Shown piece after piece: positions 19,792-50,575 of a stretch of DNA of 64,000 nt (positions within the stretch are counted from its first letter, which is position 1; each line of letters starts with the position of its first letter). Location: assembly GCA_949358305.1 (NCBI GenBank), contig OX442318.1, positions 12,940,517 through 13,004,516 on the forward strand. The letters run 5' to 3'. This stretch comes from Strigamia acuminata. Lineage: Eukaryota > Arthropoda > Chilopoda > Geophilomorpha > Linotaeniidae. The notes under the pieces are model-generated. The model was not told where the DNA came from and did not search any database. It saw only the letters and a list, made by a program, of their open reading frames with translations. A program made the position numbers and the translations under genes.

Positions 19792-22700
19792 TCAGAGGAA
19801 GTGTGTAAGAACAGAAAACAATGAAAGACCAGTCAGAATGCCAACAATAGATCCAATATTGCAGAGTAGTTTGATAATGGGCATTTTTTGATTTTCTTTA
19901 ATCACTTCTCGAATGTTGGTGTCAATATGGTAACCAAGAGCTGTGTGGAAATACGGCTGAGCTTGTTTCATTGATAGAATTAATAATGTTTCTTCACAGC
20001 GTAATGCGCATGAACAGTCTTTCTGTGGATTTGTCTTGAATTGAGCATCCAAATACATAATCTGTGTTTTTTTAGCTGCTTCTTGAGTCAAACAAAGCGG
20101 TAACTTGCTTTCTTCCATCAACGGCAATCTGGAGACACAAAAAAGATTTAAGATGCGCACTATTTGTCAGTGGCCAATGATGTGTTTTAAATGATAAGAG
20201 GGTCGTATGATTCATTACTAATTTATCAGAATATTATTGTCAATTTGCTTATTTAATTGCGAAGAATTGGTAAAAACTTACTTGCAATTGAAGGGTTGTT
20301 GCGCTAGTATTGTAGCATAACATTTCTTTTCGCATTGGACAACTTCATCACTGGTTTGGCATGGACTTTTCCAAGTATGTAATCGAACAAACTAGACAGA
20401 TTGCAGTGTAAACCACAGCATTCTTTCATGACTTTATAGAAATTACCGTCTGACGCAATATGTTTATATCCGTGTCACACTTAGTGGGAACGCTATATTG
20501 ATGTTTGGGGTGTAAAACCTGATCTTGTGGTAGAACAAAGTGCTAGAATGCAAAATTCAAATGATTTGAGGATTCAATCTGAATAGGCAAAAGATCTCAC
20601 GGTTTGGTGTCTGTTACAAGTATATCTTTGGTCTGCTTCGTGAATCATCAATTCGTTTAGCTTTATAGAAAACTCCATGTCATCTATAAAATGTAATAAA
20701 TATTATTAGTTTAAAGGAAAAAATTCATTTCACGCTTTATTTTTTGTTTTGTTTGTTACTCTTCCTGAATTCCGTGCACATTCCAAATACTGTTTGCACA
20801 ACAGATACGTTGGCATACATCGTATCAAAAGCTTTTTTTTCTCCCTGCAAATGAAATAGAAATCTCTAAACAATAATGGAACCTGAAACAATTTACTTGA
20901 ATAAATGAATACTTTCCTTGAACCATTTTAAGACTTCTTTCCCAAAATCCACATAATGTTTGAAATTTGAAGAGGCGTTCCATAAGGCCATTGTTTTGTT
21001 GGCAAATGGCGACGATCGATGGAGTAAATCCAAAAGTTGGTAATTGGAACAAGTAGTCTCCAGTCGTCTGGCTAAATTTGTTTTCGCCTCTAATATTTCA
21101 TTACTCTCACCACATATGATTACGAGTGGAAATTCAATCTTCTCATCGTCGATAAGCTCGATGGTTTGAAATGTGGGATAATCGAAAAAAGAATCAATCA
21201 ACATGTAAAGCTGATACACTGACACAAACAGTAGTGCTAGTGCGACCATGATTTTCAATTTGTTCCGGCGCACTGGCAATCTCTCTATTCTTTCTTTTCT
21301 GTCTTGAATTGATCGAATTTTGTCTTTCAACTTGGAATTTGCTTTTTTTGATTTTCCGAACTTTCTGCATACCATTTTGCAGCTATAAACAAATATTTCG
21401 ACGAGTGTTAAACATGACATGCCGAAGTAGAGCCCGATGTTGCCACCAATGTCGCACAGCAAAAAGATTATATCGTATGAAAAACTTTCTGTCATCGTTC
21501 GAATGTAATTATTGTCAACGGCAACTTCTACGATAGTCTCATGATGGGGTATAGGATCCCATGCTATGGTGAGTATTGCTACATCACATTGTAGATTGCA
21601 GTTGCATTCTTTGATTATATTGTTTAAATATAAAGAAGCCATCAGATTGTCTTGTTGTTGTCTCAGATAACTGTCATTACACTTTGCAAATTCGTTTGCT
21701 TCGTAAAAAGGATATCTAAAAAAATTAATAAGTTGAATTATTGACGTTTAGTTCAGGTATTCTACATAATTTGAACTAATTTGAACGATCATACAATGTT
21801 CATTCTTGCAGTAATACAGAAAAATTGAAAACTTCTACTAAGTTAGTGTGCCAAAATAGGTATTTATTTTCTTTTTTAACTTTTTCCAAATTTGACTACA
21901 AATCTTTCCTGACATTTGACTTGTTTTGCAAAAAAAATCCATATAATTTTTGACAAATTTACTCAAATTTTTGGTGATTTTGACAAAATTTTGTCATGGA
22001 CCGCTTTTTTTAAAATGAAATTAAATGCATTTGAAGGACTCGAGGTTACAATTGCACAATGAGAGCCCGTTTTGAACACAGACCCGTCTGTGGCTTGGGT
22101 AGTGAAACTCCCAAGTGTTCGATCTATTGTCTGATCTATTGACTGATCTATTGTCTGATATATTGTCTGATATATTGTCTGATCTATTGTCTGATCTATT
22201 GTCTGATCTTTTTCTTTGTATCAAAACTGTGGTGGAAAATAGTAGCAAAGCCACAAACAGCAAGCCAATCAGGATTAGTGAATACAGTCAAACCTTGTTG
22301 CTGTGTTCGCTTCTCCTTCTTTCACGTCTTGTTATTTTATGACGCGGTCTTTTACAGCGTCCACTGTACCTTCTTAATAAAGAAACCCCACTCATTATTG
22401 AACTCAAACATGTCCGCATCGTGAGCTTTCTTCTCCCGATACAAACTACACTTTTAGTACGATACATACTACTTGTTATAAAGAATCGCGATATAATGAA
22501 TTTTTCATTATAACAAATACCTAACAATGGCATGGTTAGTTGGTTGGCAATAGAACATCATGTTAAAAAATTTTGAAATTGTCACGGGTTCAAACCATTC
22601 CGCTTATCGGTCGATCCGTTGTGCTCAAATTTGACTAATACAAAACACACTGTTATAAGGAACAGAGAAATCAGAAAAAATATGCTGGCAAAGAATATGC

Positions 22701-25700
22701 TTGATTTCGTTCTGAATTGGCGGATGACGGCAAGTCGCTTGGCCTGAGCGCTCGTCGGGGTTTTGGCCTGAACGTTGAAGTTAACACGGGCTTCGGTTTG
22801 TGTCACTGAGCTCGTTGCAGTGGCTGCCTCGGCGATCGGCGCGTTGGCGGGCTCGGGAACCTCTGCGATAACATCTAGTGGAATTCTCGCTCATGAGAAC
22901 GAGTTCGAACTCAATCGGAATTCTGATAAAATCAATCGGGAATTCCCGATCGATTTTATCCCGAGAAAATATTTTACGAATGAATTCGGCAACTTGTTTC
23001 TGCTTCCTTCCTTCGATTCGCGATAATTGCGTTTGCGAATGAGCGTTGACGCCGTGGCGGACTGGAAAGCACTGATCCTTTAGGGGTTAAGAGTTTAACC
23101 GTAAAAGTGGCTTAGAATACCGGGCTCGATATTCCAGGCGAGGAATCTCAGACTGGCAAGATACAGTACCTGAAATCAATACTAAATGTAAAATTGTTTA
23201 GCAGTGATTTTTGTCAAGTGTGTTCTGTTCAGATTCTGGAGTCATACTGGGTCAACGGTGAGGATTCTCCTCGTGCAGACAGGATACAGCATTTCCTGTA
23301 AATTCAGTTTCTTGCAATTCCCATGGAATGCATAGGGGCTGCATCCTGTCTTAATTTGTAATTATGATAACTCTTTGATTACTAAAATTATTTAATCACA
23401 AATTAACATTTTTAAGAATATTCCTTTTACTATGGTAATTTTGGGATTACCACAAGATTAATAGAAGGTAATAAGAACTGGGTTTGCAATCAGCGCCATC
23501 TATTGTTGAAATTTAACAACTAATTAATCGAATTTGAGCGTTACGGATCGGCCGATAAGTGGAACGGTCCGTACGCGTGGCAATATCACAAACCAATTTC
23601 TGGGATTTCTTGAGATTTTTTCGGGGCCCCTTTATCACAGTTATGCTTTCTACATGAAGCAACTTTTTTTTTTTTAGTACATTGTGTTGCGTCTCGGGGG
23701 CCCCCTGGAATTTGGGAGCCATGGGCTCAAGCCCAATTTGCCAAGAAATAATTCTTGTTATTTAAATAAATAAGAATGTGAATAAACTAACATTTACCTG
23801 CACGTAAACTTTTTTAGGAGGCAGTGGCGCAAACAATCGTGTAAATTGTTATCACAAGGATTTTTCTTTGTGTTGATGAGGGAATACTAAAACATGTTTA
23901 CATGCAATTAATGGATTGTCAGAAATGTCTGTTTTTGTTTGTTTCAGAATAAATCAATTTTTAGCTGTTGAACTACTTGCAGCAAGGATAAAGATGTGCT
24001 TCCTGTTCATGCTGGATTTGATAGAAGTTAGTACACATAGTGATTTAAATTACAAACATCACACATGTTCAACGGCTAAAGGATTTATAGTTAAATGTTG
24101 GCTACTATAATTCTTACTTTCTGCACAGTGGTTATAACTTTATGAATATGATTTGCAGGAAACCAATCCATGGCTTTATTTTTCACATGATACATAACTG
24201 GTGAAACATCGATATTTATCTATTTTTTTTTTACAAAATAAATATAATTAGTTTATCTAATTATATAGGGTGACCCAAGTAAAACCGAAACCGTGATATC
24301 ATGTTACTATAAATAGTTTTTCCAATGTATAGTTTTGTTGAATTGTTCTAGAAAGTTCAATAAGCGTGTTTGATTTTTGCACTTGCAGTCATTTGCAAGC
24401 AACTATGTATTGTTGTGAACCATGAGGTTCAGTTCCTGCATTAAAACGTTACTGTTCAGATGTTTGTTACAACTCGTCCCGAATCATCATTTCACCAACA
24501 CCATCGGATTTCCACAGAAACGAGAAGCGGAGGGTCAGTTTTATTTGGGCCACCCGATACGTAGTGAACTATAATATTTTTGGTTTTAGTGAAGTTGCTG
24601 CTGTTTACAGTATCGTATATTGATTTGCATTTCAAACAACTAGTTTGCCCAGACGGCCATTATGTAGCACAATTAAAGGAGTCAATATTTATAAATATTA
24701 TATATATATATATACCAATATATACCAATAATTAATTATTGGTGTCAATATAACTCAATCGAGTGGTTAGCTGTTGTTAGTATTAACTTTTTTCAAGCAG
24801 TGGCATAGCTAGATTTTTAAGTTAGGGGGAGTGAGCAAATAAAAATGCAGGCCTGATGCATAAAATTTAAAAAGGTACTATGATTAATTTTTGATAAATT
24901 TCCAACAAAATATGAGGATTTTTTTGTTATATTCATCAGCAAAAATTGACAATATTTTGATAAATTTCAATGAACATTATCAATTACCCACAGTGACGAT
25001 GTTGATTTGTAGTTGTGAAGATTTGTCACAACTATGTATGAGGGCCGGCAATGAGTGGAAAGCATGGTAAGCATTGCTAATGGGCACAAAAGATTAAGGG
25101 CACTGGTTAAGCCTGTATGATTCATTGTAGGCTGGGTTAAGAATTCCTTAAATAATGTGCAACAGGAACTGCTGATTATTGGGTACTTATGGATAATTTG
25201 AGCAAGAATTTGGATACTGTACAGCGTACACCAGACATCCAGGAAAATAATTTTGGCATACGTATTTGTTTGTTTATTATTTTTTTTAAATACACTGTAA
25301 AAATTAAAGGTGTCAGACAAATTTCTGCTGGGTGTTTTCTACTAGGTTCTACTTTAAGTACATAAAAGGTGTATAATTACTCCTCTATATTTTTGTGGAT
25401 GTAATATTAGCTGAAGATAACACCACGGTGTTTATTTTCAAATACAACACCCTGGTCTTATTTTCTGGGGAAGACAGGTAATGGTGTAATTGAGAAAGGT
25501 GCAAGAGTTGCTTTTATAGCACCACAATTCATCAGTGAAGCAGATAACTCTAGAGACTAACTTTCATTTGTCCGCATCCTCTTGGATATTTAAATTTAAT
25601 GACCATCTTGAAATTAGAATTTCCATTTTCACATTGAAATGCTAAGCAAAGTAAATTGTAAAACATGATGATTTGTTTGTTCTGAAAGTCGAATGGTCTT

Positions 25701-26296
25701 ACGACTAGAAATTTGTGCAATTGGCCAAGTAAGAGTTTCATAGTTTTTTATTGTCACGTTAATTTTGGATTTTTTCTGCAATATATAAATTATTTTATTA
25801 TGGAGTATTTTTTCAGGATTGATAGAGAGGAAAATGCATAAACACTTACCGCATTAACAAAAGCACCGGTTATGTAACTATGCGTTTTGAAATATTTTAT
25901 ATCATACTCATTACGATATGGAGCTGGTAAGAATGGTTCAAAAATAACTCTACAGTTTTCTGTATACTTTCTTCCAAGAAACTTGTTAAATTCTTCAGTA
26001 GTTTCTGGATAGACATAAACATAGGGAAAGGAACCGTAGGCTAGTTCCATCAAGTGCACGGAGACCATTGTTGGCTCGGACATGTAATAGAAAATTCGAT
26101 CTGTAGTTTGGTAAATGCACGTTGACAAATTTAAGCTGAGTATTATGAAATAGAGAATAGAGAAAATCTTTTTCTTTTTGTTAATGCTGTTCATTTGCTT
26201 GAAGAATGACGGTATTTCCATTTGTTCTCTGAAAACATCACGAGTAACACGTCGCAGTTTCCTTCTAAGTTGTCGATTTGATTTGTATATCTTCAT
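19792..26296 (-). CDS. Two-unit (tandemly fused) DEG/ENaC channel, gene 1
   Basis: Coding segments, all GT/AG and in phase: 26296-25850, 25775-25703, 25641-25562, 24219-24118, 23886-23798, 21715-20935, 20844-20760, 20683-20601, 20542-20447, 20391-20282, 20128-19792; about 760 codons. Unit 1: TM1 (IFSILYFIILSLNLS), a post-TM1 YxxxP-like stretch (YYMSEP), a Cys-rich ectodomain (NPCDNN, CNCNLQCD), and TM2 with GLYFGMSCLTLVEIF (GxS filter). Exon 6 then gives about 40 basic cytosolic residues and TM1 of unit 2 (LKIMVALALLFVSVYQ, FPLVIICGES). Unit 2 continues with FGMCTEF, SPCQTSDEVV and TM2 (GILTGLSLFSVL), stopping right after it. DEG/ENaC subunits normally have two TM segments and form trimeric Na+ channels; four TM segments in one chain is unusual. 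Neither unit has the usual HG gating motif before TM1. The least certain border is the donor at 20935. AATAAA follows the stop within 20 bases. Confidence 0.85.
22122..22212. repeat. 12-bp tandem repeat in intron 6 of gene 1
   Basis: About seven copies of GTCTGATCTATT. In gene 2 the same intron is broken exactly within this repeat: the left part stops at 37139 (GTTTGATCTATG) and the right part resumes at 54724 (GATTGTCTGATC). Confidence 0.85.
22299..23740. other. Intron 6 insert of gene 1: small TM frame and tRNA-like stretch
   Basis: Absent from the matching part of gene 2, so it is inserted sequence (it interrupts a Tigger-like MITE whose left end, CAGTCAAACCTTGTT, is at 22284). It holds a GC-richer minus-strand frame (about 22877-22582) with no ATG near its start and one predicted TM segment (SSIFFASIFFLISLFLITV). 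It also holds a stretch at 23049-23150 with weak resemblance to Pol III A and B boxes (TGGCGGACTGG; GGGCTCGATATTCC), possibly a tRNA-derived SINE. Neither is firmly supported as a gene. Confidence 0.35.
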
Positions 26297-30780: not shown

Positions 30781-31144
30781 CTCTAGAAAAATAATTTGGG
30801 CGTAACAGTGGCATAGTAAAGGTGCAAGCAACGGTTTTATAGTGATTACCAGTGATTAAATATAGATGAAAATGTCAATAAATCATGCAAATTGTGATGA
30901 AATCAATGAAAACAAATTGTTGAATGTTATTTGTAAAAAATAAAATTTTAAAATTACACAATTGAAAATGTTTGTAAAGTTATTGTAAAAAAAAGTCATG
31001 GAAATGATCTCTTTCCTAGATTGTAAATATGCTGAGAAAAAGCTTATTTTTAATTGTTTGTAAATCTAATTTTTGTGATTAACCTGTGATTACCACAGGC
31101 AGATATTATTAAACTAAAAATTCATAACAGTGAAGGCTTACTTT

Positions 31145-31914
31145 TATGGTTTTGCATTTTTTGGGAAATTTAAATTTCATAACCATTTTATAATTAGAGT
31201 TTCCGCTCTCACATTGGAACGCTAAGGAAAATAAATGTTAAAAGTTATCCTGTTTTTATTTATCAGTTTTGAAATTTGACTTGTCTTACGACTTGAAATT
31301 TGGGCAATTGGCCAAATAGGAGATTCGTAGTTTTTAGTTGTCAGGTTGATTCTAGATTTTTTTCTGCAAGATATAATTATTTTGTGATTTTTAATTAACG
31401 ATTATTATATTAGTAGAAAGAGTAAGGTATAAACATTTACCGCATCAAGGAAAGCATCAGTTATATAACTATACGTATGGAAATATTTTAGGTCATACTC
31501 AATACGAAGTTGACTTTGTTTGTACACTCTTTATATATATATATACTCTTTATTGTCATATTTTTTTGCAAGATATTTGTTAAACTCTTCAGTACTTTCT
31601 GGAAAGATATAAACATACGCAAAAGAACCGTAGGCTATTTCCATCAAGTGCACAGAGACTATTGTTGGTTCGGACATGTAATGGAATATTCGATCTGCAG
31701 ATTGGTAGATGCATGTTGACAAATTCAAAATGTGTATTGCAAAACAGAAAGCGGACACAATCTTTTTCTTTTTGTTATTGTTTTTCATATGCACAAAGAA
31801 TGATGGTATTTCCATTTGTTCTTTAAAGACATCAAGAACAACACGTTGCAGTTTGCTTCTCATTTGTCGATTTGATTTGTATGCATTCAAGTACTGACTG
31901 CATACTTCCTCCAA
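31145..31914 (-). pseudogene. Broken copy of the first three DEG/ENaC exons
   Basis: The segment matches exons 1-3 of gene 1 in order: SNRQMRSKLQRV, TM1 and FHYMSEPTIVSVHLME, then the stretches at 31362-31285 and 31233-31150 that align with exons 2 and 3. It is disrupted. A (TA)n run at 31531-31550 replaces coding sequence and brings in a stop, and the exon-2 start has seven A instead of six, putting a TAG in frame. Splice donors are still recognisable. Nothing further of this copy follows before gene 1 starts, so it is an N-terminal remnant between the two complete genes. Confidence 0.78.
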
Positions 31915-33758: not shown

Positions 33759-35681
33759 TCAGAGAAAGTGTGTAAGAACAGAAAACAATGAGAGGCCAGT
33801 CAGAATGCCTACAATAGATCCAATATTGCAGAGTAGTTTGATAATGGGCATTTTTTGATTTTCTTTTATCACTTCTCGAATGTTGGTGTCAATATGGTAA
33901 CCAAGCGCTGTGAAGCCAAAACTTCGAGCATTTTTCATTGATAGAATAAAAAAATGTTCTTCACAGCGCAATGGGCATAAACAGTCTTTCTGAGGATTTG
34001 TCTTGAATTGAGCATCCAAATACACAATCTGTGTTTTTTTAGCTGTTTCTTGAGTCAAACAAAGAGGTAACTTACTCTCTTCCATGAACGGCAATCTGGA
34101 GACACAAAAAAGGGTTAATATGCACACTATTAGTCAGTGGCCAATGATGTGTTCAAAACGATAAGATTGTCGTATGATTCATTACAAATTTATCAGACTA
34201 TTATTGTCAATTTGCTTATTTAATTGCGAAGAATTGATAAAAACTAACTTGCAATTGAAGGATTGTTCCGCTAGTTTATCAGCATAACATTTCTTTTCAC
34301 ATTTGACAACTTCATCACTCGTTTGGCATGGACTTTTCCAAGTATTTAATCGAAAAAACTAGACAGATTGCAGTGTAAACCACAGCATTCTTATATGACT
34401 TTATGGAAATTACCGTCTGACGCAACATGTTAGTATCCGAGTCACACTTAGTGGGAACGTAATATAGATATTTGGGGTGTAAAACTTGATCTTGCGGTAG
34501 AACAAAGTGCTAGAATGCAAAATTCAAATGAACTTACGATTCAATCTGAATTGGCAAAAGATCTCACGGTTTGGTGTCTGTTACAAGTATATTTGTGGTC
34601 TGCTTCATGAATCATCAATTCGTTTTGCTTTATAGAAAACTCCATGTCAGCTATAAAATGCAATAAATACTTTTAGTTTAAAGAAAAGCATTAAGTTCAC
34701 GCTTCTTTTTTATTTTCGTTTTTACTTTTCTTGAATTCCGTGCACATTCCAAATACTGTTTCCACAACAGATATGTTGGCGTATAACCTATCAAATTTTT
34801 TTTTATTTCCCTATAAATCGAATAGAAATCTCTATACAATAATGGAACTCGAAAAAATTCAATTCAATAAATGAATACTTCCCTGGTGCCAACCTAAGAT
34901 TACTTTCCCAAAAGCCACATAACGTTTGAAATTCGAAGAGGCTTTCCATAAGTCCATTGTTTTGTTGGCAAATGGCGACGATTGATGGAGTAAATCCAAA
35001 AGTTGGTAATCCGAACAAGTAGTTTTCAGTCGTCTGGCTAAATATGTTTTCGTCTCTAATATTTTATTACTCTCCCCACACGTGATTACGAGTGGAAATT
35101 CAATTTTCTCATCATCGATTAGCTCAATGGTTTGAAATGTGGGATAATCGAAAAAAGAATCGATTAACATGTAAAGCTGATAGGCTGACACAACCAGTAG
35201 TACTAGTGCGACCGTAATCTTCAATTTGTTCCGACGGACTGGCAGACTCGCCATTCTTTGTTTTGCCTCTTTAATTGATCGAATTTTGTCTTTCAACTTG
35301 GAATTTGCTTTTTTTGTTTTACCAAACATTCTGAATACCATTTTGCAGCTATAAACAAATATTTCGACGAGTGTTAAACATGACATGCCGAAGTAGAGCC
35401 CGATGTTGCCACCAATGTCGCACAGCAAAAAGATTATATCGTATGCAAAACTTTCTGTCATCGTTCGAATGTAATTATTGTCAACGGCAACTTCTACGAT
35501 AGTCTCATGATGCGGTATAGGATCCCAAGCTATGGTGAGTATTGCTACATCACATTGCTGATTGCAGTTGCACTCTTTGAGTATATTGCTTAAATATAAA
35601 AAAGCCATCAGATTGTCTCGTTGTTGTCTCAGATAACTGTCATTACACTTTGCAAATTCGTTTGCTTCGTAAAAAGGATAT
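33759..35681 (-). CDS. Two-unit DEG/ENaC channel, gene 2, 3' exons
   Basis: Six coding segments match gene 1 in order, phase and almost exactly in size: 35681-34904 (778 versus 781 bases), 34810-34726 (85), 34650-34568 (83), 34509-34414 (96), 34358-34249 (110), 34095-33759 (337). All reading frames are open. The first segment again encodes the end of unit 1 (CNCNQQCD; GLYFGMSCLTLVEIF), a basic linker and the TM1 of unit 2 (LKITVALVLLVVSAYQ). The others give FGMCTEF, SPCQTSDEVV and a final TM2 with GILTGLSLFSVL. Keeping this structure and frame after many substitutions indicates that the fusion is maintained. The earlier exons are at 55040-55468 and beyond the right edge, because intron 6 has been expanded. 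Confidence 0.85.
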
Positions 35682-35733
35682 CTAAAAAAATGAATAAGTT
35701 GAATTATTGATGTTTAGTTCAGGTATTCTACAT

Positions 35734-36854
35734 GGTGTAGGACCACATTTGCGATCACCAAATTTGCGATCGTTAAAATTGGTTCTAAAATTGCGACGTA
35801 CCAAATTTGCGACGAATTAAAAATAAAATAAAATAATAAAATAATCTCAAATTTGCGATGCACATTATTATTAAATCCCTCCCAACAATGCGACCTCTCA
35901 AATTTGCGATGAAGACTGAAAATGATCGAAATTGAACAAAAAATGACTGAAAATGATCGGTATTGAACAAAAAACACCAAAAAGTGACCAAAAAACAACC
36001 AAAAATGACTAAAATCGTGGCAAAAACGACCTAAAATCACGCGGACGACGGCAAAAACGGTTGGAAACAATCACGCCGACGACGGCAAAGGCGAATGAAA
36101 CAATGATATCAATTGGTATTGTTGAACAGGTTAAATACGCCTTTGCCGTCGTCGGCGTGATTGTTTCCAACCGTTTTTGCAGTCGTCCGCGTGATTTTCT
36201 CCAATCGTTTTTGCCGTCGTCCGCGTATCTATTCTTAAAAGATGGCTTCTTCCTTAACACGAATTCCTTCCCACGTTAAAACCGATTCTCGGCAATGGTA
36301 CCGAAAATCACTGAAAATGATCAGAAATGAACAAAACCACCCCAAAATGACCACAAAACCATCCAAAAAAGACCGAAAACCACCAAATAATAACCAAAAA
36401 CTTGCCCATAACTTTAATCTTAATCATTAAAAAATTTCACACTTTATTTGCTGTTATTTTCTGTTATAATCGATACATTTACGGCCATTTTAGATCGTTT
36501 TTGCCACGATTTCAGTCATTTTTGGTTGTTTTTTGGTCACTTTTTGGTGTTTTTTGTTCAATACCGATCATTTTCAGTCATTTTTTGTTCAATTTCGATC
36601 ATTTTCAGTCTTCATCGCAAATTTGAGAGGTCGTATTGTTGGGAGGGATTTAATAATAATGTGCATCGCAAATTTGGGACGTCGCAAATTTGGGAAGTCG
36701 CAAATTTGAGACGTCGCAAATTTGGTCCATCGCAAATTTGGGATTATTTTATTATTTTATTTTATTTTTAATTCGTCGCAAATTTGGTACGTCGCAATTT
36801 TAGAACCAATTTTAACGATCTCAAATTTGGCGATCGCAAATGTGGTCCTACACC
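35734..36854. mobile_element. Foldback element in intron 6 of gene 2
   Basis: Both ends read GGTGTAGGACCACATTTGCG from outside inward, and the arms pair over several hundred bases (AAATTTGCGA motif repeated; the ATGATCGGTATTGAACAAAA side pairs with 36548-36570). An internal palindrome around 36100-36140 carries GCCGTCGTCGGCGTGATTG. Gene 1 has no element at this place. Open frames through the arms are not genes. Confidence 0.82.
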
Positions 36855-37139
36855 TGCTACAACAGGTTATTTATTTATTTTTTAGCTTTCTCCAAATTTG
36901 ACTACAAGTCTTTCCTGACATTTGACTTGTTTTGCAAAAAAATCCATGTAATTTTTGACAAATTTACTTAAATTATTTTTGACACAAATTGTTGTCATGA
37001 ACTGCTTTTTTAAGATGAAATTAAATGCGTTTGAAGGACTCGCGGTTACGATTGCACAAGGAGAGTCTGTCAAACACAGACCCGTTTGTGGACTTCCACC
37101 GGGGTTGGCTAGTAAAACTTCCAAGTGTTTGATCTATGC

Positions 37140-37216
37140 ACAAATATTTATTTTGCACCGGTTTCTTGGAGTTGTAAATGTCACCACTTCGCCACCAGCG
37201 TCACTTCGACACACAC
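37140..37216. other. Left junction of the 17.6-kb expansion of intron 6
   Basis: Homology to gene 1 stops at 37139 and returns at 54724 on the same strand. The 77 bases between the break and the LTR at 37217 are of unknown origin. Confidence 0.6.
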
Positions 37217-37521
37217 TAATGTGTTCTTTGGATTGATGAATACTTGGAAGTTGGAATAATGTGTAAGTTGGTTAAAAAGCAGCCATGTTGTACAGTGGAA
37301 TTAACATAAGTGATTTATTACAAGTTTTTACATAGGGGGCGCTGGTGATTGTACCAGCGTCATAATTTAACAAGCAAATTAGCATGGAGTTCGGACACTC
37401 CAGTATCCCCTTAATTGATAACCAATCGGGGGAGCAATTCACATAACTGAATATGAAATATTAAATTAACATGTAATTATCGAATAAAATGAAATGCATT
37501 GTTAAAGTTTAAACTGACTCA

Positions 37522-38196
37522 TTATTTCGATGGAAAACCATAAAATTTGGTTGGTTTCTTGGTGCGAACAGGCGGAGTACTGCGGACGGGATTCGGAGGC
37601 GGTCCAGGCTGTGACACAGGGGCAACAGGCGGCGGAGAAGGCAGCGGCGGTGTCGACAGTTTTGCAGGTGAGGTTGCAGTTACAGGTTGCAGTGTTGAAG
37701 TTACCGCTGGAGAAACTGGTTGAGCAAATGTTGGGGAAGCAATTGCACTCTGAGGGCTCACAAACGGACCAATGTGCCAATCATCCCCCTTAATTGGAAG
37801 TGGCGTTCCAATTGATAAATGTTTTTGCAATTGGTCAATGTGTTGTGACCAAATGACGGCGGAAGTCTTGCGAAACGAACGAAATGAGACCAAGAATTGG
37901 TCCACGGAATCTGCCAAAGAGAGTTGAAATTTCGTTAATTTCTCCATTTCGTCGTGGAAAAAGTTGCAATGCTGCAACAATAACGTGTGGAGCGTGTCGA
38001 GCGCGTCAGTGCTTGCCAAGCAGTTAGTGGAAGCCAGCGCCGTCGCTGCAGCAGCAACAATCAAGTTTGGAGTAGATTCGTTCGACGGGGAAGCTTCTAC
38101 ATCCAGTCTGGGGGGCGGTGAATTCAGCGGTCGTGCTTTTTGAAGGCTGAGTGCGCTTTCGGGCGGCGCGTTTGCGTGCGGACTTTGAGGTGGTCA
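37522..38196 (-). CDS. Second frame of the gag-protease element, unknown function
   Basis: This frame lies in the +1 frame relative to the gag frame and overlaps its end by about 170 bases. It is open from about 38196 but has no ATG until well inside (HDEMEKL), so if translated it probably depends on a +1 shift from gag. It contains an alanine-rich stretch, a helical middle (DALDTLHTLLLQHC, DEMEKLTKFQL) and a long Pro/Ser/Thr-rich tail ending PVRTKKPTKFYGF. The tail resembles the C-terminal end of some gypsy integrases, so it may be what remains after loss of the pol core. Function unknown. Confidence 0.5.
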
Positions 38197-39490
38197 TGGC
38201 GGTGGTCGAATTCACGACAGCACCCAACGAAATACCAGCAAGGGACAACAAACTGAAGGCGTCCAGCCAATTGCGACCCAACACTGGAACTGACCCAGTC
38301 GCAGCAACACAGAGCGGTAGGACGTATTTGCGGCGATCGTGCTGCACTGGCACGTGGCAAACTCCGTCCATCGGCAGGACGTGTCCGTCGTAAGTGGACA
38401 TCTGCGAATTGAGCGGCTGCAACTGAAATCGAGAAAAATTTTGATTATACATCTCGCGACTGATGGTTGTCGCTTCAGCGCCCGTGTCGATCTGCATGAG
38501 CAGCAATGTGTCCGCTACTCGCATTTCCCGAACCAACGGTTTGGTCGGTTTGATGCTGATCGAATTCATCGCTTTTCCGGCCTGTCGAGGTGTCGTACGA
38601 ATCGAATAGAAGGTGAGCTTCCGAGGCTCTGCAAATACAGCGTGGTGGGGAGCAGTTGCAGCGGTTGACATGCAGGCCGATTGTGTGTGCCCGACGAGGC
38701 CACAGCCCTGGCACTTGGCGCGACGATGTTCGCAATCGTCTCTGCGGTGGCCAGTCTGTCCGCACGATCTGCATTTCCCGTCGACATGACGTGGCTGGTG
38801 ACCGGTGCCGTTGCACAATTTGCACTTGGTGTTGTTGTGCTGTTGTGGTGGCTGGTCTTGTTGTTGATCGGTGGTGCCCGTCGGGGAGCGTTTTCCACCC
38901 TCGTGCGAGTTCGCATGCGATCGAGAAGAGTTTCCCGACTTCTGCAGCTGGTGAACGGATTGTTGCGCATCTACAAAGCTGGACACGTCGGCTCCGGCGA
39001 TTTCGGCGGAGGTAGCGGCCTCGAGAGCTATCGCAAAGGTGAGGTCCTTCTGCATATACAGCGTCTCTTGAACTTGCCGCATGTTCAAACCGATCACGAA
39101 CTGGTTCCGCATCTCGTCGTCTTGTGCAGCATCGAAGTCGCAATATTTCGTGAGAGAATGTAGAGCGGCCGCAAAATCGCTTACGGACTCGCCTTGGTTG
39201 CGCTTCCGAGCTCGAAAACGGACGATTTCACCTTGCTTGACCGGTCTAGGCTTTTGGTTTTTGATCATCAAGTCCGTCAGCTGTTTAAACGTCAACTCTG
39301 TTGGTTTCTTTGGTCGAGCGAGATCCACGAACTTGGCGAATGTCGCCATCCCCACGCAAGCCAAAAGCGTATTGACTTTTTCTGCGTCTGCGACGATTTT
39401 GTTGCAGGAAAACACACATTCTATCTGCATTAAATATGTCTCCCAGTCGTCGAGCGGGTTGTACTTCTCGGGTGCCGCAACCAAAGGCAT
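38024..39490 (-). CDS. Gypsy-type gag-protease
   Basis: The first ATG of the frame is at 39490 (MPLVAAPEK); the frame is open slightly further upstream from a TTG. It encodes a gag capsid region (DDWETYLMQIECVF; RARKRNQGESVSDF), two good CCHC knuckles (CRSCGQTGHRRDDC, CQGCGLVGHTQSAC) and an aspartic protease (MQIDTGAEATTIS, then VPVLGRNWLDAF). In related elements the RT follows the protease directly; here a basic tail (KSARKRAARKR) and a stop follow instead. Gag would form particles and the protease would mature them; reverse transcription must come from another element. Confidence 0.85.
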   Translation of the reverse strand: MPLVAAPEKYNPLDDWETYLMQIECVFSCNKIVADAEKVNTLLACVGMATFAKFVDLARPKKPTELTFKQLTDLMIKNQKPRPVKQGEIVRFRARKRNQGESVSDFAAALHSLTKYCDFDAAQDDEMRNQFVIGLNMRQVQETLYMQKDLTFAIALEAATSAEIAGADVSSFVDAQQSVHQLQKSGNSSRSHANSHEGGKRSPTGTTDQQQDQPPQQHNNTKCKLCNGTGHQPRHVDGKCRSCGQTGHRRDDCEHRRAKCQGCGLVGHTQSACMSTAATAPHHAVFAEPRKLTFYSIRTTPRQAGKAMNSISIKPTKPLVREMRVADTLLLMQIDTGAEATTISREMYNQNFSRFQLQPLNSQMSTYDGHVLPMDGVCHVPVQHDRRKYVLPLCVAATGSVPVLGRNWLDAFSLLSLAGISLGAVVNSTTAMTTSKSARKRAARKRTQPSKSTTAEFTAPQTGCRSFPVERIYSKLDCCCCSDGAGFH

Positions 39491-39915
39491 TTCAAAACGG
39501 TAAAGTTGACGAAAAACGAGCAAAAACTTACAAGCAAAAGTTCGGGCCTAACGGTCAACACGTGGTCAGGGACGCGTGGTCGGTGGCGAAAAGTTCATCA
39601 AAAGTTCCCAAAAAGAGCACAAAAGTTTGTAAAAGTTGCTGGATTCAGTCATATCCCATCCTCGTCGCCAATAATGTGTTCTTTGGATTGATGAATACTT
39701 GGAAGTTGGAATAATGTGTAAGTTGGTTAAAAAGCAGCCATGTTGTACAGTGGAATTAACATAAGTGATTTATTACAAGTTTTTACATAGGGGGCGCTGG
39801 TGATTGTACCAGCGTCATAATTTAACAAGCAAATTAGCATGGAGTTCGGACACTCCACACACCGCCCAATGGCCCTTAGGTCATCCCTCCTTGCGGAGTG
39901 GTATGACCTACAGTT

Positions 39916-40238
39916 CGTGCACGGTATATCTTGATGCTAAATTCGTACTGCGCATCCCATTCTGCGCAGACGATTTTCTAATTCCAGTTGTTATTTTGCA
40001 GTATTAAGCCTATTATTAGGCCTAATAATGTTTAAATAAAGTAAATAAACAACAACAAACTCTTCATTAAGAGTAATTTACGCAGTATGACCAAAATATT
40101 GTTGTTTATTTACTTTATTTTAGCATTATTAGGCCTAATAATAGGTTTAATACTCCAAAATAACAACTGGAATTAGAAAATCGTCTGCGCAGAATGGGAT
40201 GCGCAGTACGAATTTAGCATCAAGATACCGTGCGCAGA
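39916..40238. mobile_element. Inverted-repeat MITE
   Basis: Arms of about 135 bases pair: GCACGGTAT and CTTGATGCTAAATTCGTACT on the left, and their complement ending ATACCGTGCGCAGA on the right. The loop (40050-40098) is short. Target duplication was not clear. Confidence 0.75.
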
Positions 40239-40339
40239 CTATAGTATAGGGAAGGAGGGAGCTGAGTTATGTAGGGAGTAGAGAGAAGAGTGCTGGGTCT
40301 CAATCAAGACAGACATGTGAGAAGTAAGGTCCTGAAGCC

Positions 40340-40690
40340 AGCTCTCCACCCCATTCACCACTGCAATGCTCAGTAATGTGATGATGAATCTACTACAGCC
40401 TCCTTGAGTGGTTGCATGGGACCTACAGGTGAGTTTGACAGAATGGTTATGTTTAACCGGCCACTTCATACATGGGGTTCCTTCCCTGTGTATGACAGGT
40501 CAGTTGCCGATGTGGCGTGCCTTTGCGACACTGCCAACATGCGGGTAGATGGGAGTCTCCAAACCCTAGACAAAGGCCAACAATTCACCAATCTGGAGTT
40601 CCTTGTCTTATTTACGGTGAGGATGCATCCCACTCCATTGTAACCAGTTTTTAGGCTGCCATGGAGAAGACCATACCAGCCACAAGTGAG
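40340..40690 (+). repeat. Dispersed repeat R1, copy 1
   Basis: Shares with three other places in the window the ordered blocks CCATTCACCACTG, GCTCAGTA, GCCTCC, GGGACCTACAGGTGAGT, AGATGGGAGTCTCC, CCCTAGACAA, GTGAGGATGC and GAAGACCATACCAG. About 350 bases, non-coding. The orientation label is arbitrary. Confidence 0.7.
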
Positions 40691-40739
40691 GGTCCTGTTC
40701 TGGGATAATGAACTTGGAAATTTTTTTTGACCCGGCATT

Positions 40740-42268
40740 TTGTTTCAGACATGTTGTGAGGGTTGAATTGTTTTTTTTTCATTTGCATTAATCTTTTAGA
40801 TTGTGTTTTTTAGTTTTCTCAGTTGATGTATTTGAAGGGTATTTTTTATCTATCACTTTGGATTTCAGAGATCTAGTTGTGGAGACTTTCATTTGAAAAT
40901 TGTTGAACTGTATTTTTTCAAGTTCTGGTGTGGTTGAGGACTCTGAATTTATTTTAGACACACTACAACCAACCAAAGCACTTTGAGGTTTATTTCTGTG
41001 GGTGTGCTGAGGATGGGGTGGCGCTCCCCTCAGGCGGTTACAGGATGGCATCCTATTGTGTACTTTCTTTTGTGTTTTTCTCCCCCTTTGCACCAGGTTT
41101 AGACCTGCAGTATTTTTTATTTTTTATTTTTACTGTTTGCTCTATGTTTGGTGTTGGGTTGGAAAACACTTGTTTTCTTCTGTCTCATTCTCTCACTTAC
41201 TTGGGCTGGGTAATGCATAAGTGTAGTGAGGAATGTGCAATTTTATTTTTTCTTTTGTGTTGGTTTGGCTAGAGTTTGACTGAGGTATTTATTTATTGCA
41301 CGATAACATTGGCCAACTGACATAAAAGTCTAATTTTATTTTATTTTTATGTTTTATTTTCTGGTGAGCAACTGATGAGGAATCAACTAGTAACATTTGC
41401 TCAGAATTTATGGTTTGTAATGTTGCGAGTTTGATCAACTCCACTCTCTGAACACATACTGAAAGTGGGTGTGTAGGAGTTAGGTTAATTATTTAACCAA
41501 CAACGTGTTACCCATGACATTCTTGGGGTTATGCCTGACATAATGGCATCTTAGATCGATGCCACATCGAACAAATAGGTATAATTTGTTTTGTGATCAG
41601 ATTGTGTCAAAACGGTTTGGTCCACCCTGGATTCTGCTCAGAAAAGCTTCGCAGAACATTAAAATGTGAAGATTACACAAAGTTGCTTAAAGGTCGTGTG
41701 CAAACCTTCTGTAAGGCATGCGCGAAAGGGAGGGAGACTCCTCCCCCAATTTGCACCCAGCTTCGACCTGAAAAGATGTGCCCTACAGTCTGATTGGTTT
41801 AATCTGTTGCTAAGTAAAAACTTAGCCCAGAATATTATTTTGCCCAAATAATACTGTATTTTTCTTTTCTAGATAATTGGAAATATGGTAAACTTCTCAA
41901 ATAAATACATTTGAGGTTACCACAACTTTTGTAGATTACAAGAATGCAGACTCTCAACTGGGGTGCGGAGAACATGATGTGTCACTTTGTGACTACCTAC
42001 CCTATCTCGGGCACTGGTGGAAGTAGATTGGTGTGATTCTGGCTTTTTGTGTTTGTTATGGCCATTTATGGCACATTTTGTCAATTTCACTGCCTTACTG
42101 TGGAGATTGGATCTCGGAGAGCGGGGAGGGCGGCCTTAGTGGTGGGACTGCTTTGGTGGTGTGCCTAATGGTATTTGCTATTAAACTGCGCATAGGATGA
42201 TTTGCAAATACGAATTGGGTGGCTAACGGCTTTGAAACTTTTTTTATATTTTTCTTTTTCAGTGATAT
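40740..42268. other. Intergenic, nothing recognised
   Basis: No coding region, repeat or RNA gene is supported. Several T-rich runs and scattered short frames only. Confidence 0.4.
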
Positions 42269-42847
42269 TGTTACGCGGAGAAAGCATACCGAGTGATGGA
42301 CGGCTTTCTACGCGTCGATTCGGCTAAAATGCATTTATTAGTTGCCAAATTTTGTCATTAGATGGCGTTGAGTGATGACTTAATCATCACCTCGTCATCG
42401 GGGGAAAAGATTGGCAAAACGGGGGTAACAGGAGCTTTCCTGTTAAGCAAATGACCCGACTTAAAACACTTCTCTTCAGGAACTTGAAACGGTATGAGCT
42501 CTGATCCCTTGGCTCGAATAGGAAATCAATGTCAGCCCGATTGTGGCAAGGCAGCGAGGAACTATTGTCATTGCATGACAAATTGATTAATTGTTTCAGA
42601 TTATCATTACATGTTTTATTTGTTGAGAATTGTATTGTGTTGCATTTACTTTAATGAGATGTAAACCCAAATGTAAATTCACCCAAAGCCAATGAATAAT
42701 CGAACAATTACATTGTCCGGTTAAATAAAGAGAATTAGTTAAAGTTAAACCTAAATAAAAGTCTGCTCATTTCATTCCTCACACTTCAGACCCCAAATAG
42801 AGTTGTTGTGTGGTCACCGCTCTTAAAGGACAAAGAACCACGCAACA
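42269..42847. repeat. Solo LTR
   Basis: Starts TGTTACGCGGAG and ends CCACGCAACA (TGTTRCG/CGCAACA symmetry), 579 bases. It is flanked on both sides by ATAT and contains AATAAA-type signals near 42725 and 42753. No internal region is present, so it probably arose by LTR-LTR recombination. Confidence 0.6.
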
Positions 42848-43378
42848 ATATGTGTAGAACCCTTTTCCTAATTTGTGAAACACAACACGTTTTCCCAAGC
42901 TATTATCCTATCTCTACTCTATTTTCATACCCAAATTGAGTTGTACTTCAGTCTGACAGCACTCTGGCTTGAGCTGGATGACCTTCAGCAAGACTCTGCA
43001 TGACTTGGTTCAGGCTTATTCTGCCAATTTCCCTTCACCTTTAGTCTGTGGCAAATGAGTCAAATTAATTTTACCTCATCTTGATTATCGCAATCATGGT
43101 GGTGTTCAGGTGTGATGACGGTGCTTGTGCTAAGCAATACCGGGAAAGCCTGAACACGCGTTTCAGCGTTTTAGCAGTGGTTAAGACTGGTGTGATATCA
43201 GTCAAAAGGAAAACGTTTTGCTGTAACATTCGTAGCTGTGGGGCGTGAGGACAAAATTTCGTAAAATTTGATAAACGTTTTTTTATTACTTGTTTTAGAG
43301 TGTGAATAAATTCTAAAAGCGAAAGAAAGGACAGCCATTGTTTAAAGTTAAATTTTTTAGATGTTTGTTTGAAAGTAT

Positions 43379-44446
43379 TGTTGCGCGCCCGGACTACACT
43401 GAGAAGCAGCGAGTCTGATCGCTCTGAATTTGACTTAGAATAATTTTGATTTGTCTCTTGTCTAATCTTGATTTTCTCTTTCAGTTTATAATTTGAGTTT
43501 GAATTTATTATTTATGTTAGGTTTGATAATTTCATGTATTCAATCCCACTTGAATAAAATAATGATTTAAGGTTTAAAAGACATGTGTCTTCATTTCTCT
43601 CCTTACAAACCTCTCAGTTTCTTATCTAGTTAAAAAACTAAAGAATTGTTATACAGGGTGGTCAGAAAGTCTGGTTCTATGAAAATAATTCCCAAACTGT
43701 TCTAGATGTTGATTCAGCAAAATTATTGTAAGGGTAGTATGTCGGGGGAAATCCAATTATGACATCCAATTTGACCTCTGAGGTCATCTTCAAGGTTATC
43801 CATATTGTAACTCGAGAACCGTGACAGATAAAGCAAAAAGATGAATTAGAAAGTTGTAGAGCATCATCCAATTAGTCTAGAACCGTTCTTAAAAAAATTA
43901 TTTCTTACTGTAAAGTTTTGAGAAAAAAGGTCTGAAACATTAGTCTACTCAGCATTGTAACTCAGCTTTGTAACCTAAAAGTATCGAGGCAACCAAGCTA
44001 ATCCTCAATTAGGACACTTTATTTGGCCATACTTGTAAGTGGAAGAGAGGAAACACAAAAGAAAAGAAATAATTTATTTTGGAAATACATTCCAACATGA
44101 TTGTTTTAGGTTACAAAGCTGAGTAGACTAACATTTCAAACCTTTTTTTCTCAAAACTTTTCGGTAAGAAATAATTTTTTTAAGAACAGTTCTAGACTAA
44201 TTTGATGGTCCTCTACAACTTTCTAATTTACTTTTTCTCTCTATCTGTCACGGTTCTCGAGTTACAATATGGATGACCTTGAAGATGATCTCTGAGGTCA
44301 AGTTGGATGTCATAATTGGATTTTCCCCGACATACTACCCTAACAATAATTTTTCTGAATCAACATCTAAAACAGTTTGGGAATTATTTACATAGAACCA
44401 GACTTTCTGACCACCCTGTATATGGTGTCCCCTGCCACACGTAACA
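43379..44446. repeat. Solo LTR split by a MITE
   Basis: Starts TGTTGCGCGCCCGG and ends CTGCCACACGTAACA, flanked by GTAT on both sides (43375-43378, 44447-44450). Without the MITE at 43654-44418 it is about 300 bases long and carries an AATAAA signal near 43555. Confidence 0.6.
43654..44418. mobile_element. TA-flanked foldback MITE, Tc1/mariner-like ends
   Basis: Begins CAGGGTGGTCAGAAAGTC and ends GACTTTCTGACCACCCTG, flanked by TA on both sides. The arms pair over about 330 bases. No transposase frame. It inserted in the solo LTR at 43379-44446. Confidence 0.85.
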
Positions 44447-44529
44447 GTATCAAAGAACTTTGTCGCTTATTTTTTATTTTGGGGTGTGGATACATACTAA
44501 AATCTAGGGTTTACCGGTGCTGATCCTGC

Positions 44530-44621
44530 TTCTCTCACCATTCACCACTGTGACGCTCAGTAAGATGGCGATGTGCCAGTTGCAGCTTCCATGAGAGGCT
44601 ATATGGGTCGTACAGGGTAAG
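44530..44621 (+). repeat. Dispersed repeat R1, copy 2, left part
   Basis: Reads CTCACCATTCACCACTGTGA then GGGTCGTACAGGGTAAG, where the copia 3' LTR begins. Its right part is at 50500-50575. Confidence 0.65.
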
Positions 44622-44966
44622 TGTTGAGTTGTGCAGGAAACCACTTATAATTCCGTGGTTTTGCAGTGGAATTGGAAGAACTCTGGATGAGAAATAAAGA
44701 GACAACTTGGTTGCTGCTTAGAAGCTGAACACAGAGTGAAAGATTTATTCTTTTAGTCACATGACTGGCCACACGGTATACAGCGCCACCTTATGGCCAC
44801 AAATGCAAACACAATGTAAACAAAGCTGCTATTAGTCGTGCAGCTAAAAGTAAATACAAACGAAAGGTCATAACAATTAGAAAGCATTACTGCTTGACAA
44901 TATGACATAAACATAGATACATAAGCGGTCACATATTATATTTCAACAATCGGCCCCCTCATATTA

Positions 44967-47900
44967 TCAAGCGCTTAAAATAGTTAAGTCAACCAGGAAA
45001 CGATTACAGAATTGAACCAGGTCAGTTTTGTCGACTGACTTCGTAAATATATCTGCGTAGTTGGATTTCGTCCCCACATGCGTAATTTGAAGATTGTCCC
45101 TTCTCACAAGCTCTCGAATAAAATGATATCTAATATCAATATGCTTGGTCTTTCGATTCTCCACATTGGATTTGGTGAAGTCAACCGTCGAGATGTTGTC
45201 GCATAAAATATGGTGATTAAACCTATCAGCGAGTTCGGGGACGATTTCATGCAGAACTCTTACAATCCATATGTGGTCCTTTACTGTTTCAGTAAGGGCC
45301 ACATATTCGGCTTCCATGGTCGACAGCGTGACATTTCGCTGTTTAAATGTTCTCCAGTATATTGGTGAACTTCCTAGTGTTATGAGTGTTCCTCCAATGG
45401 AGATACGGTCATCCCTGTTGTTTGCGTAGTCAGAGTCACTATAGCCAATGACTTCTACTCGATCATTTGGGAACAGCATCAATCCAAAGCTCCTCGTCGT
45501 CCTCAGGTAACTGAGCAAGTCGAGCAATGCGATCCAATGGTCCCATCCGGGGTTGGACTGGAACTGGCTTAGGATATTAACAGCGTAGGTCATATCGGGT
45601 CTTGTCCTCGATGCGATAAACGCCAAACATCCCAGCAAGCTTCGATAAGGAATTCCCTCCATTATCTTGCAGTCTTCAATCGTACTTGGACAACTTTGCT
45701 TTGTAAGGATAGTTGCCTTTGTCATCGGTTGGGATCGGATTTTTACAAAGTCTAGATGGTTCTTGAACTTCAGTAGAACTTTGTTGATATATGATCTTTG
45801 ATGTAAGACCATGCGTTGATCATATGGGTAGAACTCAACTCCCAACAGTTTTCTCGTCTGTCCTAAGATGACTAAGTCGAATTGAGTTTTGACCATGTCG
45901 AGTACTTTCATTGCGTCTTCGTGTTGTTTTCCAAACACAACAATATCGTTGACGTAGACTATCAAATACGCGATGTTGCCATATTTGTAGACGCAATTGC
46001 ACCAATTTACATGTTGCAGTCCAAGCTTTAACAAAGTGTCCTCCAATTCGATGCCCCATTCTCGTCCCGACTGGTGTAGACCATAAATGGCTCGAAGGAG
46101 TCGACAAACATAATTTTCTTTGCCTTGACAAACAAAACCTTTTGGTTGTCGCATGTAAACGGTTTTATGTAGTTTTGCATAAAGATATGCACACTTCACA
46201 TCGGCCTGGATGTAGCTCCACTTCAGCATACAGACGAGTAATGTGAACATGAATCGAACAATCGAGAAGTCCACGACAGGTGAGAATGTCTCTTCATACG
46301 ATTCTCCGTACACTTGCGAGAAGCCCTGCGCCACGAGACTTGCCTTATAGCGTGCGATTTCCTGTTTGTCATTTAGCTTCACAGTGTAAATCCACTTGCA
46401 ACCGATGATCTTCGTATCAGGTGGTGGTGGAACCAGTTCCCACACATCTCGCTCATGCATCATATCAATCTCGTCGCACATCGCTTGATCCCATTTTTTC
46501 TTTTCAGGAAGGTCGGCTATCTGCTCAAATCGTGCAGGTACATAGACGTCGAGATGATTAGCCTCAAAATCGAGAGTTAATTCGTCTATGTCCGCGTCTG
46601 AATAGTCTGCCGTTGCATTCGACTCAGAAGGTTTCTTTCTTCTCTTGTCTTCGAATAGGTGTTCTGGAACACAAAGATTGTGATCCGCACAATAGCGTTT
46701 GACTTCAGGTATTGATCGTAATTTAGGCTTGTCGTATCCTTCAATTGTGTATTCGACATCCTTCTGTCCAGTTGGCCTAAACTTCTCTGTTTTCTTCCAC
46801 ACAAGATGTGGGACTGTCCGTACTGGATCTGGATCTTGTGCCCTCGCTTGTGGTATGATTGCTGGCGGTCTGGTTTGAAGCTTTTCTTCCGGCAATCTGA
46901 ATTTGAGTCTCAATTGAGGTAACTCTAGTTGTGGATCCTCTTTCCTTTTGATTGGCGCTGGCGGGGGTAGCGGCGGCCTCACATCTTCATCTGAATAATA
47001 CTGACGATCGTTGTTATCGTCCAAATTATCGTTCAAATTGTCAATAAATGTCGTGTATTTCTCAGGTAGGCCCAGCACGTCTTCAACTCCGCGCTTGCTT
47101 TCCACAAACTTAACGTCGCTAGTCTCGATGACTTTTGAAAAGTCCGGCAGCCATACTCGATATCCCTTTGTGATTCTAGAGTATCCAAGCATGATCCCGT
47201 GCAAAGCTTTATTGTCTATCTTTCCATCTCGCACTCTCTTTTGCACGAAGCATAGGCTTCCGAATTTTCTTAAATGTCGGAGTGATGGTTTGCGTCCATA
47301 ATACAACTCCATCGGGGTTTTGTCCGAATTTAACTTGGCTATTCTGTTTCTAAGGTAATTGAAAGTGAGGATGGCTTCTCCCCAAAATCTGTGCTCCAAT
47401 TTTGCATCATAAATAAGGGCTCGCATCCCATTGGCCAACGTTTGGTTTAATCTTTCCGACACGCCATTTTGGGCAGGTGTGTACGCGTTGGTCCTCTCGT
47501 GATTGATGCCAAGTCCCTCTAGGTATTCTCCAAACTTATTTGAACAAAATTCCATTCCATTGTCCGTCCGAATTGCCAAAACCGATTTTCCTAACAATCG
47601 TTCTATTCGTTTGACGTGTTTCTGGAAAATGTCAAATACCTCGTCCTTTCTCTTCATGAGGTACACTGTAGAATAGCGGGAGAAATCGTCTGTAATGGTG
47701 AGGAAATATCTATTTCCTGACAGCGTTGCTGTGTTAAACGCTCCGCATACATCCATGTGCAGAAGTTGTAATGGTTCCTTCGACCGAATTCCAGGCAGCG
47801 ATTTGTGAGAGACCGATTTCTTCTTCGCCAACGTGCAGACGTCGCACTGTGTAATTGGCACGTCGAGAATTGGCAGCCCAATTACTGCATTCCGCTTGCT

Positions 47901-49424: not shown

Positions 49425-50187
49425 TGTGATTCACGATTGTAAAAGACTCGAACTTGTTTTCCCACTTGATACGAACACTTATTTTCGAAAAAAAAAAACA
49501 CTTTCTCTACTGAATTTTCGCAACGTAGTGCAGTGTTGCGAGGTTAGTTCGCTCTTAAAGTAAGTTAGTATTTATCCTCACACAACTCTAAGCTAACAAT
49601 GCAATAATGTAATAATTTCGAAAATAAAACACGATAATTGTTCATAAATATGGTGTCTTCGAGATGCTTCCCTGCTTTGTCTCCCATTGTATCACACTTC
49701 ACGTGTATTTTCGAGCCCACTATTGTTCTTTCCCGTCGATTTTCGTCTCGTATGCACCTCGCAAACTTTTCGCCAATTGTCCGTCGTTTTTCAGCTCCTT
49801 GTTGCTTATTCCTGTCCAAAAATCTCGGTTCACACTTCACGTGTGGTTGCCGAGAATTATCGCACCGGTTGATTCGTTTGCCAACCGAAATATTCGTCCC
49901 GTTGACGATACGTATCGCCGCTTGCGATACGTGGGCAAAACGTCCGAAATTCGGAAAAAAGAAAAACGTATGAATAAAGATTTTATATTGTTCGAACCCA
50001 ACTAGTGTTTCCGTGTTGTTTGGTGATCCAAATCAGCTTCAAACTCTGCTAAGCACTGGTCCAAACACAAGTTGACAATCTTTATCATGGGCGCCGCCAT
50101 GTTGGATTTTCTCCAGATGACCTCCAAATGGATGAAAATTCTCCAAAACTTTTCCAAAAGTTTCCTGGGTTGATTGGCCCATAACCT

Positions 50188-50499
50188 TGTTGAGTTGTGC
50201 AGGAAACCACTTATAATTCCGTGGTTTTGCAGTGGAATTGGAAGAACTCTGGATGAGAAATAAAGAGACAACTTGGTTGCTGCTTAGAAGCTGAACACAG
50301 AGTGAAAGATTTATTCTTTTAGTCACATGACTGGCCACACGGTATACAGCGCCACCTTATGGCCACAAATGCAAACACAATGTAAACAAAGCTGCTATTA
50401 GTCGTGCAGCTAAAAGTAAATACAAACGAAAGGTCATAACAATTAGAAAACATTACTGCTTGACAATATGACATAAACATAGATACATAAGCGGTCACA
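50188..50499 (-). repeat. 5' LTR of the complete copia element
   Basis: 312 bases, one difference from the 3' LTR at 44622-44933. The leader between it and the gag ATG (50187-49425) is about 760 bases and has no conserved coding sequence. Confidence 0.9.
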
Positions 50500-50575
50500 T
50501 AAGCACGTCAGAATGTTCATAAGTGACCAACCACATCACCCATGGGGCTCAACACCCTGTGAATCTAGGTAGTTT
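50500..50575 (+). repeat. Dispersed repeat R1, copy 2, right part
   Basis: Continues the copy broken at 44621: GACCAACCACATCACCCATG and GGGCTCAACACCC match the block following GTGAGTACGACACG in copy 4. Confidence 0.6.

Follow-up and report, generated by a model that had tools for sequence, protein, structure and literature searches.

A centipede gene family predicted to encode DEG/ENaC subunits with two channel units in one chain

The stretch examined here, the window below, is 64,000 nucleotides from the centipede Strigamia acuminata (assembly GCA_949358305.1, contig OX442318.1, positions 12,940,517 to 13,004,516 of the forward strand), and window positions count from its first letter. The genome searched has 237,517,015 bases in 157 contigs, labelled C1, C4, C6, C8 and so on, in which the window is C6:12940517-13004516; loci have numbers of the form L008. 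The known DEG/ENaC channels are trimers of one-unit subunits. The gene of interest lies on the minus strand at 26296-19792, and a first-pass annotation of the bare sequence had joined its eleven exons in phase into one protein in which the order first transmembrane helix (TM1), ectodomain, second transmembrane helix (TM2) occurs twice. Rebuilding the gene from the sequence returns the same model, with a product of 760 amino acids and no stop, the exon sizes 73/80/102/89 and 85/83/96/110, and the intron phases 0,1,0,0,2 occurring twice. All ten introns are GT-AG. There are four hydropathy peaks, at residues 44-62, 357-375, 419-437 and 738-756, and two ectodomains in the one chain. The exons are as follows.

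25850..26296, minus strand: exon 1, start codon, N-terminus and unit 1 TM1 (TM1 at about 26167-26111)
25703..25775, minus strand: exon 2, 73 nt, phase 0 to 1
25562..25641, minus strand: exon 3, 80 nt, phase 1 to 0
24118..24219, minus strand: exon 4, 102 nt, phase 0 to 0, with a homologous exon in L029-L032
23798..23886, minus strand: exon 5, 89 nt, phase 0 to 2, cysteine-rich
20935..21715, minus strand: exon 6, 781 nt, unit 1 palm and TM2, linker, unit 2 TM1 and start of its ectodomain
Parts of exon 6, minus strand: unit 1 TM2 at about 21438-21382 (GMS motif), linker at about 21384-21256, unit 2 TM1 at about 21252-21196
20760..20844, minus strand: exon 7, 85 nt, phase 0 to 1
20601..20683, minus strand: exon 8, 83 nt, phase 1 to 0
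20447..20542, minus strand: exon 9, 96 nt, phase 0 to 0
20282..20391, minus strand: exon 10, 110 nt, phase 0 to 2, cysteine-rich
19792..20128, minus strand: exon 11, palm, unit 2 TM2 (about 19863-19807, GLS motif) and stop codon

The exon that matters most is exon 6, a single open frame that encodes TM2 of unit 1, a basic linker of 43 residues with a net charge of +13, and TM1 of unit 2. Because both helices and the linker share this frame, the fusion does not depend on splice predictions. The linker is 43 residues in all three complete models, its pattern k.n.kL..ki is kept across 19 copies, and from the predicted topology it should lie in the cytoplasm.

A profile search of the spliced protein, proposed with the first-pass annotation, finds the Pfam ASC domain at 74.6 bits (cut-off 23.6) in three stretches of the 760 residues, exon 1 of unit 1 by itself scoring 17.3 bits, which is under the cut-off. 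The family rule of two transmembrane helices and one cysteine-rich ectodomain per chain holds for each unit and fails for the chain. In view of the four hydropathy peaks and two ectodomains we give the DEG/ENaC name to the units only, and call the chain a variant. A G-x-S motif is found in TM2 of both units, as GMS 362 and GLS 749 in the window protein, GMS and GFS in L030, and GMS and GLS in L031.

Four distant paralogs, L029-L032, were examined in stretches of 7.0-7.5 kb with an exon finder that required the phases of the window gene, so the weight of this comparison is in the scores and the order of the exons. Homologous exons are in order for all 11 in L030 and L031, for 1-9 in L029 and for 2-11 in L032; the unplaced ones of L029 and L032 either lie beyond the ends of the stretch or went undetected. 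The lowest-scoring exon accepted in the four is exon 8 of L031, with a score of 19. L030 has its 11 exons within 3.9 kb (1773-5638 of its stretch), and in L029 exon 5 is separated from exon 6 by 90 bp. The translations of L030 (777 amino acids) and L031 (768) have no internal stops.

Across the genome, exon 6 of the window gene as query gives at least 146 scored places from 1483 candidates, all 146 covering TM2, linker and TM1, and 144 of them free of stops. Exon 6 of L030 gives at least 147 scored places from 1550 candidates, with 146 reaching both helices, 142 without a stop and 5 with one. The two queries combine to at least 166 loci, of which 76 are on C6, 60 on C1, 22 on C8 and 8 on five other scaffolds; at one (C1:52253701) TM2 is not reached. 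At least one further exon 6 locus lies within 200 kb for 134 of the 166, so that many copies are clustered, as in expanded families of the sensory-receptor type.

Exon 6 also has the expected neighbours. On the same strand and within 25 kb, using the best 150 of 590 exon 1 candidates and 149 of 150 exon 11 places (1407 candidates), the transition from exon 1 to exon 6 is counted 118 times, 6 to 11 134 times, 11 to 1 46 times, and all others 39 times. At 97 of the 166 exon 6 loci the nearest neighbour upstream is a first exon of unit 1 and the nearest downstream is a last exon of unit 2, with median distances from exon 6, where found, of 3.1 kb to exon 1 and 2.7 kb to exon 11. As far as genomic sequence can tell, the family very probably makes a two-unit protein. 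At least 93 further ASC exon matches are present on several scaffolds, and all of those 93 are more than 25 kb away from the two-unit exon 6 loci; the remaining DEG/ENaC family of this genome is also large.

The first-pass annotation had taken the agreement of intron phases between the units as hard to explain unless one gene had duplicated in tandem and fused with its own copy, and this argument does not survive comparison with single-unit genes. The array on C4 contains L008 (478 amino acids) and L007 (465 amino acids), which have the same five introns in the same phases 0,1,0,0,2 and differ from the window gene by having one unit, six exons and a stop after TM2. The phases of L008 were read by eye and then joined, and those of L007 come from the finder that required them. 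Since single-unit genes carry these phases, the match denotes family membership and is no sign of a recent internal duplication, and any two adjacent family members would yield it; equal phases are accordingly ruled out as proof that one gene was duplicated and fused.

Trees say more about the history. An 11-row tree groups the four unit 1s in a single clade (100/100) and the five unit 2s in another (100/99), and the distance from unit 1 to unit 2 is about equal to the distance of either from the single-unit genes. The branches between groups are weak in a second tree, of the TM2 exon (17 rows, eight of them counted as single-unit, L001-L006 by the last exon alone), and units 1 and 2 as one clade are neither shown nor rejected (approximately unbiased test, p 0.45). 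Because unit 1s and unit 2s each cluster, the few copies sampled are most simply explained by a single fusion that preceded the expansion, and we consider this likely. DEG/ENaC genes in the C4 array are spaced 2.1-3.7 kb apart, and such close spacing would be a setting for the merger of neighbours by loss of a stop codon.

The window has two more copies, one of which allows selection to be estimated.

33759..55468, minus strand: copy A, a second copy, exons 4-11; exons 1-3 were not found within the window
55468-55367, 55128-55040, 35681-34904, 34810-34726, minus strand: copy A exons 4-7
34650-34568, 34509-34414, 34358-34249, 34095-33759, minus strand: copy A exons 8-11
31133..31890, minus strand: orphan copy B, exons 1-3, exon 1 being interrupted by an in-frame stop; exons 4-5 were not found after them

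Between the window gene and copy A the ratio of nonsynonymous to synonymous change per site (Ka/Ks) is 0.45 over 559 codons, made up of 0.52 in exons 4-5, 0.35 in exon 6 and 0.51 in exons 7-11, and nonsynonymous changes per site are fewer than synonymous ones with a Fisher p of 4e-6 under assumed site fractions. Ka/Ks across 14 chosen exon 6 pairs goes from 0.34 to 0.89. The compared copies are under purifying selection, in part relaxed.

Chains with duplicated units are familiar from K2P and TPC channels, which have two-domain subunits with duplicated pore units. The likeness is in the duplication, but those subunits split a four-fold pore evenly and two units cannot split a three-fold one. 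The best solved match of both units is BRTNaC1, broad-range thermal receptor 1 of a centipede (PDB 8ymr-8ymx), with E = 4.6e-13 for unit 2 and E = 3e-07 for unit 1. It is a DEG/ENaC protein by sequence and from the same class of animals, and it differs in having one unit in a chain of 431 residues where the window protein has two per chain. According to a passage of PMC12714832, this centipede receptor is thermal and is expressed in neurons of the antenna. PDPNaC1 (PDB 9jf7) matches unit 1 less well (E = 6.7e-05). It is a proton-gated channel of the centipede antenna and so a DEG/ENaC protein in a sense organ, again a single unit, of 421 residues, for which a passage of the same paper gives a homotrimeric assembly (PMC12714832). 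Covalently linked concatemers of ASIC subunits conduct, according to a passage of PMC10329638. They too have DEG/ENaC subunits in one functional chain, but they are laboratory-made and link three units against two here.

Searches of 5.77 billion proteins find no relative of the whole chain at E 0.01 (0 of 2763 candidates) and none of residues 300-500 at E 10 (0 of 1138 candidates), where a search covers only proteins of 0.55-1.75 times the query length that share exact words with it, in a database that includes named animal proteins; the 120 COX1 matches listed from it include none from Strigamia, hence the result does not show that Strigamia maritima or other centipedes lack such a protein. 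The titles and abstract openings listed from the literature mention no two-unit DEG/ENaC protein, and for two-ASC proteins the 12 entries listed, of 279, use ASC in other senses. In the main text of the Strigamia maritima genome paper, which does survey GRs, IRs and other chemosensory genes, the terms 'sodium channel', 'degenerin', 'pickpocket' and 'amiloride' are all absent.

The explanation we favor, and on the whole hold to be rather probable, is that this is a natural tandem two-unit DEG/ENaC subunit that was fused once, multiplied, and contributes two units to a sensory channel with a 2+1 pore. The last exon of one DEG/ENaC gene would have merged, once, with the first exon of its tandem neighbor downstream, losing the stop codon and the intervening DNA to give exon 6, and the fused gene would then have multiplied as sensory-receptor families do. 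One chain would occupy two of the three positions around the cation pore, and the third would go to a single-unit subunit or to a unit from a second chain; we put the chance of such a 2+1 pore at about even. The linkage would fix the order and ratio of subunits, as in the engineered ASIC concatemers. The channels would serve chemical or thermal sensing, a role that is reasonably probable from the expansion of the family and its kinship with BRTNaC1. A natural chain of two units would break the match between chain and pore, and would offer a ready-made concatemer for asking how subunit order and ratio shape gating, while at least 166 loci in one centipede are a pointer to a possible sensory system. 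Going further, one could suppose a receptor class specific to geophilomorphs, in which the diverse chains of at least 166 naturally concatenated genes pair with one or a few single-unit partners (2+1, Orco-like) or work as twin pores, and which would be a main channel of taste, smell or heat sensing; this we offer tentatively, as a doubtful extension.

A number of observations weigh against the favored explanation, some in the protein and some in the gene copies. The DEG/ENaC motif after TM1 is FPxVxxC, and the alignment has FPLVIIC in unit 2 and FPYVYVY, with no cysteine, in unit 1. Unit 1 also has no FGMC cysteine; unit 2 keeps both, and in ASIC these two cysteines pair. The gating motif of the family, HG before TM1, is absent from the whole window protein, and the HGs of L030 and L031 come after TM1. 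The absence of HG is not decisive, since the motif is taken from general knowledge and since single-unit L008 and L007 are without it before TM1 as well (SIIGV). Given the missing cysteines and the missing HG, unit 1 may be structural and not conducting. The two units are not equivalent, since unit 2 alone keeps both cysteines and the chain ends 9 residues beyond its GLS.

In the gene copies, the splice donor of exon 6 is the main difficulty. In 19 copies read, the window gene included and L027 left out (its match is identical to L026), an in-phase GTAAG stands near the end of exon 6 in 13. The window gene is without it, having a weak donor, GTCTTA, and reading GAAAGT at the GTAAG place, and copy A has GTAATC as donor. 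At the usual donor place an in-phase GT is missing from L025 and also from L011, L012 and L013, which belong to the four close C6 relatives that were read. The GTAAG place reads GAAAGT in L009 and L011-L013, GGAAGT in L010 (copy A) and ATAAGC in L025, and an earlier in-phase GTGGAT or GTGGCT is present in L009-L012. These odd places in L009-L013 and L025 are either decayed donors or unusual introns, a GA-AG intron starting at GAAAGT being a possibility. The window copy may splice poorly at exon 6, and were the donor unused, its protein would stop 13 codons further on, inside unit 2. As to the wider family, a match contains a stop in at least one search at 5 of the 166 loci and one of the 14 exon 6 pairs has the Ka/Ks of 0.89, from which some copies may be decaying. 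Identical pairs among the loci are recent duplicates or possibly unmerged haplotypes. The order exon 1, exon 6, exon 11 is incomplete at 69 of the 166 loci; candidates that were not scored, long introns or the decay of copies may account for this.

The alternative that survives best keeps the two-unit protein and changes the assembly. Three two-unit chains would make a twin-pore complex with no partner protein, the unit 1s (or mixed units) forming one pore and the unit 2s another. Six units make two trimers with none left over, the units differ and each has its own clade, and we judge the 43-residue linker long enough to reach an adjacent trimer. But unit 1, being without the two cysteines of unit 2, may not gate alone, and the at least 93 further ASC exon matches of the genome make partner subunits available. 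We regard a twin pore as unlikely, if a serious contender.

It is a little harder to believe that the family is real while the window copy is decaying, its damaged exon 6 donor leaving a product of unit 1 plus TM1 of unit 2. The weak GTCTTA, the GAAAGT where 13 of 19 copies have GTAAG, and the stop in the adjoining orphan copy of exons 1-3 speak for it. Exons 7-11, which such a product would not include, nevertheless keep their open frames in both copies of the window, at a Ka/Ks of 0.51, and the donor of copy A is better; decay of the window copy is thus distinctly improbable.

In a further alternative, alternative ends and an internal promoter would give two single-unit products, and the open frame of exon 6 would be incidental. 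The window gene (CKM) and 8 of 9 plus-strand copies translated do have a methionine just behind TM2, but it is missing in L023. The exon 6 match is stop-free in 144 of 146 places, the linker pattern persists over the 19 copies, and the exon 5-6 intron of L029 is just 90 bp, against what two products would suggest. With the 3.9 kb span of L030, the short intron and the stop-free matches also make the outcomes named in the first-pass annotation, transcripts ending or starting inside exon 6 or a separate transcript for the exons before 23798, look unlikely, and we give the two-product alternative very little credence. That two adjacent genes were misread as one by assembly or prediction has a negligible chance, common as prediction merges are in general, when the join lies within one unbroken exon that recurs at 166 loci on 8 scaffolds.

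The favored two-unit genes sit in the window among mobile and repeated DNA. Intron 5 of copy A is 19.4 kb and contains retroelement frames, and the further features noted are these.

37214-37402 and 39669-39857: direct repeats of 189 bp, 99% identical, around a gag-like frame at 38024-39547 (no Pfam match), perhaps a young long terminal repeat element inside copy A intron 5
44967-49430, minus strand: Copia-type element with long open frames, inside copy A intron 5
57066-61004, plus strand: Copia-type element with long open frames
19112-19619 and 32922-33409: repeat arrays downstream of both gene copies, with units of about 22 bp and about 20 bp and a AACGTGTTTT-like core
18237-18734: repetitive, open in several frames of both strands
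12578-15583, plus strand: BEL/Pao-type retroelement, a long open frame in which Pao peptidase, integrase and reverse transcriptase domains are recognised
6873-9623, minus strand: open frame of 916 amino acids with a NACHT domain (Pfam, 79.4 bits)

The last of these is of some interest for itself, NACHT/NLR proteins being rare in arthropod genomes.

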